Shown: positions 6,702 to 11,339 of the stretch, one piece after another | How positions within the stretch are numbered: position 1 is the first letter of the stretch | How the letters are laid out: each line of letters begins with the position of its first letter | Virus record (IMG/VR): IMGVR_UViG_3300005436_000023 | Coordinates: 1 to 34,727 of that record | Direction: 5' to 3' (one strand) | From: a virus | Length of the DNA: 34,727 nucleotides | Translations under genes and position numbers: made by a program | Notes under the pieces: generated by a model | What the model was told of the DNA's origin: nothing | The model's database searches: none | Seen by the model: only the letters and a program-made list of their open reading frames with translations

Positions 6702-6950
6702 ATGACCAGTAAAGAATATGACAGAAATTATAGAATTAATATGCGAAAAAGGGGTTATGTTAGATTAGATAAATGGTGTCCTCTTGAATATAGAAAAATG
6801 ATAAAATCCGTTATTGATGTTCTTTCTTGTCATAAAGAATCACCTGAATCGGCTGTCGAATTCCGCGCAGAAATAAATGGCTTGTGTTCTGCGATTCATG
6901 ATAGGTTTGAGCGGGAGTATAATGTTGAAAATGATAAATCAGTATTTTAA
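6702..6950 (+). CDS. Small basic protein, possible ribbon-helix-helix type (copy 1)
   Basis: An 82-residue protein. The GGAG five bases before ATG 6702 makes that the start rather than GTG 6696. The N terminus (YDRNYRINMRKRGYVRLDKW) resembles the start of small MazE-like/ribbon-helix-helix proteins (R-x-R-M-R-x-x-G-x-x-x-x-x-x-W-V/C-P). The protein at 7301-7483 carries the same pattern. It may bind DNA as a dimer. The family assignment is tentative. Confidence 0.55.
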   Translation: MTSKEYDRNYRINMRKRGYVRLDKWCPLEYRKMIKSVIDVLSCHKESPESAVEFRAEINGLCSAIHDRFEREYNVENDKSVF

Positions 6951-7821: not shown

Positions 7822-8118
7822 ATGAATCTTTTAAACGAAACCATGAATGACTTAGATGTGCACGGTAAATTTGCTCATGACGTGTGCTTTGTTATGTGCG
7901 ATGATATCTTTATGTCTTTTGAAGATTTCAAAGAATGGGCGAAAGATATAGAATACTATGACGGATATGGAGAATGTCAAATAAGTCTGAAACTTAAGAT
8001 CGTTGGATTAGACTGGTGGTTGGAGCGTACCGAGTATAATGGTAGCGAATGGTGGGCGTTCAAGCAATTGCCCAAAAAACCGAAAACATACGGAAAAATC
8101 GTACTCGTAGCGCCTTAG
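7822..8118 (+). CDS. Phage conserved hypothetical protein (WWLER/EYNGSEWW motif)
   Basis: A 98-residue acidic protein. The block DVCFVMCDDIFMSFEDFKEW followed by LKIVGLDWWLERTEYNGSEWW is, as I recall it, a pattern found in hypothetical proteins of several phage early regions. It is the last gene before the long non-coding stretch at 8119-8419. AAGGG precedes the start. The function is unknown; its acidity would fit a DNA mimic, but that is speculation. Confidence 0.6.
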   Translation: MNLLNETMNDLDVHGKFAHDVCFVMCDDIFMSFEDFKEWAKDIEYYDGYGECQISLKLKIVGLDWWLERTEYNGSEWWAFKQLPKKPKTYGKIVLVAP

Positions 8119-8196
8119 TTTTAAGTATATTTAATGATATACTACATACTCTTGATGTATATAGCTTACAAATGACTCTTCGGAAAGACGAAGTCG

Positions 8197-8226
8197 AAAG
8201 GGGTTATGTGAGGTAGCTCCTTTTTT
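8197..8226 (+). terminator. Probable terminator of the accessory operon
   Basis: AAAGGGG (8197-8203) can pair with CTCCTTT (8217-8223), with one G-U, and is followed by three more T. It sits between the last accessory gene and the tRNA-like element. The loop is long (13 bases), so efficiency is uncertain. Confidence 0.45.
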
Positions 8227-8227
8227 A

Positions 8228-8318
8228 TGGGGGAAAATTAGGAAGTAACGCCACCTCTGTCGGATAGGTACCACCGCTCATGTCCCGTTATGGCTGGGTT
8301 CAACTCCAGCTCCCCCAC
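8228..8318 (+). ncRNA. tRNA/tmRNA-like RNA element
   Basis: TGGGGGA (8228-8234) pairs perfectly with TCCCCCA (8311-8317) as a 7-pair acceptor-like stem. GCTGG (8293-8297) pairs with CCAGC (8306-8310) to form a T-arm with loop GTTCAACT; the GGGTTCAACTCC string is shared with the 3' end of E. coli tmRNA. GTAACG (8245-8250) pairs with CGTTAT (8286-8291) where an anticodon or P2 stem would be, enclosing 35 bases with an ACCT/AGGT hairpin. There is no regular D-arm or 7-base anticodon loop, and the T-loop is one base long. It is thus tRNA-like rather than a normal tRNA: a processed RNA, a tRNA mimic, or the relic of an attachment site. Confidence 0.5.
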
Positions 8319-8380
8319 CCTTTAATTATTTAATTTAAAATCTTAACATATACAAAATATTTGCAATTTCCATTCAGAAT

Positions 8381-8394
8381 ATGATAAAAATCAA
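8381..8394. promoter_or_regulatory. Imperfect TGATT-type dyad before zinc microprotein 3
   Basis: ATGATA-AA-AATCAA, a degenerate match to the dyads at 8629 and 19513, lies 26 bases before the ATG of the zinc microprotein at 8420. It is weak on its own and listed because of the recurring pattern. Confidence 0.35.
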
Positions 8395-8419
8395 CATTGA
8401 TTAATGTCTGGAAATAAAA

Positions 8420-8692: not shown

Positions 8693-9079
8693 ATGCGTCC
8701 ACAGCTTAAGATAACAGATAAAGACAGAAGAGAAATTTTTGAGATGGCATCTCGAGGAATGAGATATGCCGATATTGCGATAATCAAAGATATTTCTTTG
8801 GCAACATTAAAAAGAAGATGCAAGCGTGAGCTTTCGAGAGGCAAAAGAATTGGTATAGATGGTTTGCTTCAAACTGCTTATCACATGGCAAATGATTTGA
8901 AGAATCCGACCATGATGTGCTTTTTGTTGAAGACACAAGGTGGATTGAGAGAAAAGAGTCAAGTCAATATGACTGTCAATGAGAAGAAATCTAAAGAATC
9001 TACAAAGAGAGAAAGCATGCCAAATGATCCAATTTTGGCGGCCAAAACATACAGAGAAATTATTACGAGGACAGATTAA
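8693..9079 (+). CDS. Terminase small subunit (putative)
   Basis: A 128-residue protein with an N-terminal helix-turn-helix (DRREIFEMASRGMRYADIAI then ISLATLKRRCKREL), followed by a helical middle segment and a charged tail. This is the usual make-up of terminase small subunits, which recognise the packaging site and feed DNA to the large subunit. AAAAGG precedes the ATG. It is the first gene of the late operon, with terminase large subunit two small genes downstream, which supports the call. The sequence alone would only say DNA-binding protein. Confidence 0.7.
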   Translation: MRPQLKITDKDRREIFEMASRGMRYADIAIIKDISLATLKRRCKRELSRGKRIGIDGLLQTAYHMANDLKNPTMMCFLLKTQGGLREKSQVNMTVNEKKSKESTKRESMPNDPILAAKTYREIITRTD

Positions 9080-9265: not shown

Positions 9266-9747
9266 TGGTTAGCGCGGGAGAGTTTTATAAATGGCTCAGA
9301 GTTTTTAAGGTTCCTTTCGGTGGATCTACTGGTGGCGTTACAATCATTGCAGGAACCGGATTAATTGGTGGTGGTTTTGTTCCTCTTGGCGGCGCTGTTA
9401 CTCTTGCGACTGCTGGCGCAGGTTCTTCATTTATTGAGGTGACTGGCACATCTCAAGCAATGGTTTCTAACACAAGCTATTCTACAAATAATGCAGGGCT
9501 AGTAACACTAACATTGCCCACAACTTCAGTTGTAGGAGATCAAATTACCGTTTATGGAAAAGGAGCGGGCGGATGGAAAATAGCTGAAAATTCTGGCCAA
9601 CAAATTATATTGGGAGAATCTTCATCAACACCATCAACGGGAAGCTTGCAATCTACCTATAGATATGATGTTGTTAAATTGACCTGTATTACAGCAAATA
9701 CTCTTTGGACTGCTGTTTCTGAGTCAGGCAATATTTCAGTATTGTAA
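9265..9747 (+). CDS. Fibre/decoration-like protein inserted between terminase genes
   Basis: A 160-residue protein starting at the TAATG overlap (an ATG at 9250 is also in frame). After a short helical N terminus and a Gly-rich segment ([18 protein letters not shown]), residues about 55-160 form a domain seen in tail-fibre and adhesin-like proteins: [54 protein letters not shown] and [20 protein letters not shown]. That domain is normally near C-terminal receptor-binding parts of long proteins, so a stand-alone gene between the two terminase genes is unusual. It may be a head fibre or capsid decoration. It ends in TAATG overlap with terminase. Confidence 0.65.
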
Positions 9748-11339
9748 TGCCAATACCTTTCAAATTCGATTTTAAAAATCCTGATTATGTCAGTGTTTTT
9801 GAATGGAGATTGGAAAGACTAGATAGAATAAAAAAACATCCAGAAAGTATAGGATTTCTATTTCAGTTTTATAGAGATAATCCTGCTCAATTTATCATTG
9901 ACTGGGGAATGACCGCGGATCCAAGAAATGTTGAGCGTGGATTACCTGCCGTCATTCCTTTTATCCTATTTCAAAAGCAAGAAGACTGGGTTCATTGGGT
10001 AATTGAGAGATGGAAGGCACAAGAGCCAGGCATTACTGATAAGTCTCGTGAGATGGGTATGAGTTGGTTATCAGTGGCATTTGCATGCACTATGTGCTTA
10101 TTCAATGATGATTTCGTTGTGGGGTTTGGTTCTCGAAAGGAGGAATACGTCGATAAGATAGGTGATCCAAAATCATTATTCTACAAGGCGCGTCAATTTC
10201 TTTCTTTGCTTCCTTCTGTATTTACGGGCGCGTGGAATCAAAAAACAGATTCGGCTCATATGAGAATTATGCTAAGGCCAACAAACGCCGTTATGACAGG
10301 TGAGGCTGGCGATGGAATGGGTCGAGGAGATAGAACAAGTATTTATTTTGTTGATGAATCATCTCACATACAAAGACCGGAATTAATCGAAGCATCATTA
10401 TCTCAAACAACCAATTGTAGAATTGATATATCAACTCCATTCGGATTGGCTAACCCCTTCGCGCGAAAAAGATTCAGCGGAAACATTCACGTATTTTCTC
10501 TTCATTGGCGAGACGACCCTCGAAAGGATGAAGAATGGTATCAGAAAAAAATAAAAGATATTGATGATCCAATTGTCATTGCGCAAGAAATTGATCTTGA
10601 TTATTCAGCTTCCATGGAGGGAATTGTCATACCGTCAAAATGGGTTGCATCTGCAATTGACGCTCATAAGAAGCTTGGCATAAATGTCAGCGGAATCAGA
10701 AAGGCAGGATTTGATATTGCTGATGCTGGAAAAGATAAAAACGCGTTTTGTGGTCGGCATGGTTTTTTAATAGAGCATATCGAATCATGGTCTGGTAAAG
10801 GTAACGACATATATGCAAGCGTTGAAAAAGTATTTTTTAATTGTGACACTCATGATTACCCTATCGTTTTCTATGATGCTGATGGAGTCGGCGCGGGCGC
10901 GAAGGGAGATGCAAGGGTCATTAATGATAAAAGAAGCATGAATGGAGCAAGAATAATAGAGTTTGAAACATTCAGAGGATCTGGATCAGTTATTGACCCA
11001 GATAAAGAAATGGTAGCTGGAAGAACCAATCAAGACTTTTTTGAAAACCTTAAGGCTCAGGCATGGTGGTCTCTTCGACTTAGATTTCAATCAACATATC
11101 GTGCCATTGAAGAAAATCAACCATATGATATTAATGACATAATTTCAATATCATCTGAATCACCAGAATATATGAAGTTGGTTAGTGAATTATCTCAACC
11201 AACTTTTTGTCAAAGTAAAAACGGTAAATTAATGATTCAAAAAATGCCTGACGGTCAGAAATCACCCAATCACGCAGACGCCGTTATGATAGCATTTTCT
11301 CCTACTAACAGATTGGGCTGGATGAGTGATTATGATTGA
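9747..11339 (+). CDS. terL: Terminase large subunit
   Basis: A 530-residue packaging ATPase/nuclease. Walker A is the variant KSREMGMSW (99-107), common in this terminase group. Walker B with the catalytic Glu is IYFVDESSH (199-207). The nuclease core shows [13 protein letters not shown] (321-333), [11 protein letters not shown] (374-384) and a C-terminal [10 protein letters not shown], which supply the acidic metal ligands of the RNase H-like fold. It cuts and pumps DNA into the prohead together with the portal. It starts in a TAATG overlap with the preceding gene, and its end overlaps the portal start. Length is normal. Confidence 0.95.

Follow-up and report, generated by a model that had tools for sequence, protein, structure and literature searches.

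A possible compact tRNA-like RNA element behind the late terminator of a temperate-type myophage

The late-operon leader and the element at 8228–8317

The stretch of DNA analyzed here (the window; all 34,727 nt of IMG/VR record IMGVR_UViG_3300005436_000023) belongs to a temperate-type myophage. Genes before position 8118 encode an HTH repressor, a YdaS/Cro-like protein, a replication initiation protein, a Dam-type methylase, and a superinfection-immunity protein, and those after the element include terminase, portal, head, sheath, tape measure, baseplate, and endolysin genes. The probable terminase small subunit gene (terS; 8693–9079, plus strand) is named from its position and has a weak match to phrog_2308 (function unknown); the terminase large subunit gene (9747–11339, plus strand) served as the query for finding relatives. 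The sole close relative, IMGVR_UViG_3300025939_000096, shares 99.85% identity with the window across 11.9 kb, rising to 100% within the element. When phages, plasmids, and E. coli genomes were searched by BLAST for homologs of the element, all matches were due to chance or to a tRNA or terminator. Among viral contigs, exact sub-patterns of the element occurred only in the near-identical contig and in one unrelated coding match (three copies of one sequence), and the relatives identified through neighboring genes (L084–L087) were without the element.

The element sits in a 302-bp gap between open reading frames, as judged from the ORF list, and, where the late genes begin, starts 1 nt past the T-run of an intrinsic terminator. 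This terminator (8196–8226, plus strand; 12-pair hairpin, z −4.1, with a T6 run at 8221–8226) is the only strong intergenic plus-strand terminator of the window, the other strong plus-strand terminator (at 11204) falling within the terminase large subunit gene. Upstream of it the transcript contains a small hairpin, GACTCTTCG-GAAAGA-CGAAGTC (8174–8195, plus strand), part of which is listed as a minus-strand terminator-like site. By position, the terminator is comparable to the tR' of lambdoid phages. Neither a Q homologue nor a pR' promoter was recognized in the window; control by Q and a terminator at pR' is confirmed in a study of late promoters that does not mention tRNA (PMC6266700). The AT-rich leader ahead of the first late ORF (8321–8419, plus strand) has no convincing sigma-70 promoter. 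Separately, the sequence AAAGGGGTTATGT[TG]AG occurs twice in the window, once inside a small ORF (6748–6763) and once where it forms the terminator hairpin's 5' arm (8197–8212), with 15 of 16 positions identical.

The element (8228–8317, plus strand) consists of a 7-bp acceptor-like closing stem, an adjoining T-like arm, and an irregular middle of 35–44 nt. In the closing stem, read directly from the sequence, TGGGGGA (8228–8234), the same as the acceptor of many proteobacterial tRNA-Gln, forms seven Watson–Crick pairs with TCCCCCA (8311–8317). The T-like arm (8293–8310), with five Watson–Crick pairs between GCTGG (8293–8297) and CCAGC (8306–8310), directly adjoins the acceptor-like 3' strand in the manner of a T-arm on an acceptor stem, and its loop, GTTCAACT (8298–8305), has 8 nt, one base more than a canonical T-loop. 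A third helix, GTAACG (8245–8250) with CGTTAT (8286–8291), is weaker than the other stems (five Watson–Crick pairs and one GU) and encloses 35 bases. All three helices had been described in the initial annotation and are present as drawn there. A possible D-like mini-arm of three pairs only (TTA-GGAAG-TAA, 8238–8248, plus strand), suggested by the layout of the phage RNA family described below, would compete with the six-pair helix. The 3' strand is followed by CCC (8311–8320 with the strand), CCA being absent, and no anticodon arm was found in the element, with no 5-bp/7-nt arm in place.

Likeness to tRNA and tmRNA, and the contribution of chance

The element is neither a tRNA nor a tmRNA. 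ARAGORN and Rfam, the latter at gathering and relaxed thresholds, gave no match for it, the RF00005 covariance model gave none at E ≤ 10, and ARAGORN reported it only at a setting that yields 198 calls across the window. The 7-bp and 5-bp stems of a tRNA are present, with a loop of 8 nt instead of 7. For tmRNA, there was no covariance model match (RF00023), no tag frame, and a length of 90 nt against about 350 nt. These results agree with the initial annotation, which had called the element tRNA-like yet neither tRNA nor tmRNA; the tRNA program and Rfam searches it had proposed found no ordinary tRNA in these bases.

Partial likeness to tRNA is concentrated at the 3' end. The last 29 nt scored 34 against tRNA 3' ends (local shuffles, 21 ± 2), with tRNA-Gln the best match, and the middle (8236–8292) had no tRNA similarity (p 0.59). 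In alignments to the tested tRNAs, the element again matched tRNA-Gln best (48, compared to ≤36 for other tRNAs and 28 ± 3 for shuffles), though the tRNA-Gln set was picked for its matching acceptor and comparisons with it are therefore generous. A 3' end matching the TGGGGGA/TCCCCCA acceptor type occurred in 72 of 399 genomes, and the loci examined with ARAGORN were tRNA-Gln. A covariance model trained on 18 tRNA-Gln sequences placed the element at the top of the window (11.7 bits, E 0.43), compared to 11.5 bits for a coding stretch and 20–76 bits for real tRNAs of other isotypes. On these comparisons a tRNA origin is unproven. The likeness to tmRNA is weak: the sharing with E. coli tmRNA that had been pointed out initially stands when tmRNA is considered alone (3' end score of 33, above all 60 shuffles), but the same score was reached by 10% of shuffled windows (P about 0.1 per window) once all 32 tRNA and tmRNA 3' ends were allowed.

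The main rival explanation, which we consider possible but doubtful, is that the stems pair by coincidence within a non-coding, GC-rich spacer and that any function lies at the DNA level, as a packaging start (cos/pac) or a site for a late regulator ahead of terS. The minimum free energy of the fold is close to that of shuffles (z 0.13–0.15), so that the fold is not unusually stable, and the tRNA-Gln model scores a coding stretch as highly as the element. Further, 7 + 5 pair patterns without a loop motif are common (about 1.9–3.5 per shuffled window), the oligo-G and oligo-C of the GC-rich stretch (56% GC compared to 37% for the window, a value reached by 0.1% of 91-nt windows) ease the formation of long stems, and the place beside terS suits a packaging site. 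Against coincidence, the loop holds a tRNA-type GTTCAA, the acceptor is identical to that of tRNA-Gln, the element abuts the terminator exactly, and the same slot in relatives holds tRNAs and tRNA-like RNAs (see below). Patterns of 7 + 5 pairs with TTCRA in a 7–8-nt loop were found 0.017 times per Markov-shuffled window, and the value for a bare 7 + 5 pattern starting ≤3 nt behind a T6 run was 0.013 shuffled windows, a figure that counts the bare pattern and the T6 run only and requires neither loop motif nor terminator hairpin. Overall, the fold is not above chance and the pairing pattern is weakly above it, and it is the position directly behind the terminator that lifts the element above chance. 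This evidence is independent of how the element was selected, because the initial annotation made no use of the terminator.

The slot behind the late terminator in relatives

The nearest well-sampled terminase relatives (58% identity) were enterobacterial prophages, which were inspected at their own early/late boundary. Many of them carry a tRNA-Asn and a tRNA-Thr there (L015, L016, L019–L021, L032, L036, L037, L065, and L093), with the first tRNA beginning 0–3 bases past the terminator T-run (...GTGGCTTTTTTTATTT followed by GGGTCAG in L015 and L093). The pair joined to the T-run spans L015:1850–2005 and L093:2680–2835 (E. coli and Shimwellia prophages), and the P1-like RCS47 has the same isotype pair, Asn and Thr. 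The same terminator is annotated in HK75 as Tr' and is preceded by pR'. In L039 and L045, it is followed by a different, tRNA-like sequence in place of a tRNA. In these relatives the slot is followed by lysis genes before the terminase is reached, whereas the late genes of the window start with the terminase. Elsewhere in the relatives, a nearly invariant, hairpin-rich non-coding block of ~180 nt lies upstream of terS (L015:4205–4390 and 10 other loci; 164 phage records), and occurs in lambdoid and P22-like phages (HK022, HK620, CUS-3, and epsilon34); the L015 copy had no Rfam match at E ≤ 1, and the block is perhaps a packaging or regulatory site. A likeness of GCCACC...GTACCAC in the window to a conserved block found ahead of terS in enterobacterial prophages was rejected, as the conserved core of that block is missing from the window.

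The tRNA-like sequence of L039 and L045 belongs to a conserved phage RNA, for which each query matched 112–152 phage records, many in part only. Carriers include the lambdoid phages HK75, HK629, HK620, and IME10, part of lambda (44785–44868), and, beyond the lambdoids, the P1-like RCS47, the N4-like IME11, Ackermannviridae (Magnus), and Skate- and Akira-like Salmonella, Klebsiella, and Erwinia phages. Delimited loci are L045:846–973, L039:1296–1413, L197:378–495, L199:372–495, L200:372–499, L205:315–442, and L207:314–446, and, in lambda, NC_001416 about 44858–44939. The RNA is absent from Rfam 15, and a non-exhaustive literature search, which included the Pas sRNA paper (PMC13192938), found no description of it; the svsR sRNA (PMC12803456), located at the cI gene, was rejected as a different RNA.

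This RNA is closed by an 8-bp stem (TTGTGGTG/C[AG]CCACAA). Inside it, two bases lead to a D-like arm (TGCGCA-GGCTGA-TGCGCA, with variants); after an irregular middle, a T-like arm adjoins the closing stem (GCCGG-AG[AT]TCAGCA-CCGGC, or with the loop TTCGATT), its loop having 7 or 9 nt. An anticodon arm is absent, and the length is 118–144 nt, up to about 220 nt. In a comparison of nine sequences, pairing holds in 99.4% of cells, both sides have changed in four pairs, and no shuffle or slid control reaches the covariation score. The closing stem is altered to TTGTGATG/CATCACAA in RCS47, and lambda holds a reduced version whose closing stem carries a compensatory change (TTGTGCTG/CAGCACAA) around a far shorter interior. 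One subtype comprises HK629, HK620, phiEt88, DS8, Bas77, IME11, RCS47, and ep3, and a second HK75, Akira, and the Skate-like phages; a covariance model (R2) detects both. HK75 carries the RNA behind its annotated pR' and Tr', and true tRNA genes lie beside it in RCS47 (Asn, Thr), Akira (Met), and phiEt88 (Phe). The conserved phage RNA is better supported than the window element, which has the layout of the family, with a possible small arm of only three pairs, and its place behind a late terminator, and which model R2 did not match (5.1 bits, E 0.65 in 3 kb).

Two further observations concern the conserved RNA itself. A long hairpin, CACAACAGGTAAGAGCA...TGCTCTTTCCGTTGTG, precedes it (L045:773–850, L039:1224–1300, and lambda NC_001416 44785–44868), and the 3' base strand of this hairpin shares bases with the closing stem's 5' strand; the two pairings are therefore mutually exclusive and might act as a switch. 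In Salmonella phage vB_CECAV_048 (PQ186186; L193:787–844), an annotated 58-nt ‘tRNA-Ser’ corresponds to the 3' part of the RNA and is probably a misannotation.

Interpretation and comparison with known systems

The tRNA pair held by relatives in this slot raises a second explanation, that the element is a decaying ordinary Gln-like tRNA gene, placed behind the late terminator in an ancestor, that has lost its D- and anticodon arms. The best alignment being to tRNA-Gln (from the set chosen by its acceptor) is in keeping with this, but all 12 of the 12 acceptor and T-arm pairs are intact beside an unrecognizable middle, which neutral decay would not yield, and the T-loop is one base longer, with 18 extra bases in all; we regard this origin as rather improbable. 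Weakest and disfavored, indeed very improbable, is the initial proposal of a remnant attachment site that derived from a tRNA or tmRNA gene, since GGGTTCAACT...CCAGCTCC is common to the element and E. coli ssrA but the window proteins searched include no integrase, the position is in the late operon, and 369 genomes held no near-exact tRNA/tmRNA 3'-end match that could be a host core, the suggested search with the 24-nt T-arm/acceptor half (≤3 mismatches) giving a single match outside any tRNA.

Our preferred reading, held at about even odds, is that 8228–8317 specifies a compact RNA element of non-canonical, tRNA-like form in the late-operon leader. Counting against it are the tRNA-Gln model score level with that of a coding stretch, the middle unlike any tRNA, a fold no more stable than shuffles, the lack of a match to model R2, the absence of a recognized Q gene or pR' promoter, and the different placement of the lysis genes in relatives. 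On this reading, early transcription would stop at 8226, and late in infection an antiterminated polymerase would read through, so that the late transcript would carry the element on its 5' side. The minihelix of acceptor stem and T-arm is the part of a tRNA recognized by RNase P and 3' tRNA-processing enzymes. The element would have retained this minihelix (7 + 5 pairs, then CC) and lost the parts used in decoding; it cannot decode because it has no anticodon arm. Its most likely role would be that of a punctuation mark by which the late mRNA is processed or stabilized, or, after excision, that of a small RNA mimicking a tRNA. The initial annotation had likewise suggested a tRNA mimic or a processed RNA, a reading that gains support from context, by analogy with the tRNAs and tRNA-like RNA in the late slot of relatives.

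By the same analogy, the element would work like the phage tRNA-like RNAs without being a member of that family, as slot and layout are shared and sequence is not. It may be a stripped-down relative of the tRNAs or the tRNA-like RNA of related phages. More tentatively, and with less confidence than in the element itself, we propose that temperate and some virulent phages harbor an undescribed class of tRNA-like RNAs, often found in the late leader behind tR' and interchangeable there with true tRNAs, of which the element would be a compact representative, diverged in sequence, from an unrelated phage lineage. If the element is real, selection in the slot behind the late terminator would favor tRNA-shaped RNAs even without decoding ability, which would suggest that they serve the processing or stability of late transcripts, or interference with the host, and not translation. 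Lambda-type phages have the same slot, including the reduced version in lambda, which makes the idea testable in E. coli.

Among known systems, tRNA-Gln with a TGGGGGA acceptor has the same acceptor and resembles the 3' half of the element at 20 of 23 positions (GTTCAACTCCAGCTCCCCCACCC compared to GTTCGAATCCAGCTCCCCCAGCC), but the element has one extra base in the T-loop, about 18 extra bases, and no D or anticodon arm. The tRNA-like domain of tmRNA shares the acceptor and T-arm, an irregular D region, a helix replacing the anticodon stem, and GGGTTCAACTCC, whereas the element, at 90 nt, has no tag reading frame, no pseudoknots, and no RF00023 match. The late-slot tRNAs of lambdoid prophages likewise start within a few bases of the T-run, where the late operon begins, and have an acceptor and T-arm, but they are ordinary tRNAs detected by ARAGORN, in contrast to an element with no anticodon arm, an 8-nt T-loop, and no CCA. 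The conserved phage tRNA-like RNA comes with a strong D-like arm of 5–6 bp in 118–144 nt, compared to ≤3 bp in 90 nt for the element, and with a preceding long hairpin that the element lacks. The two have no sequence homology; the likeness lies in a long closing stem, a short A-rich link of 2–3 nt, a small arm with a GG loop, an irregular middle, and a 5-bp T-like arm adjoining the closing stem, with an enlarged loop in one subtype as in the element, and, in lambdoids, a place behind tR'.
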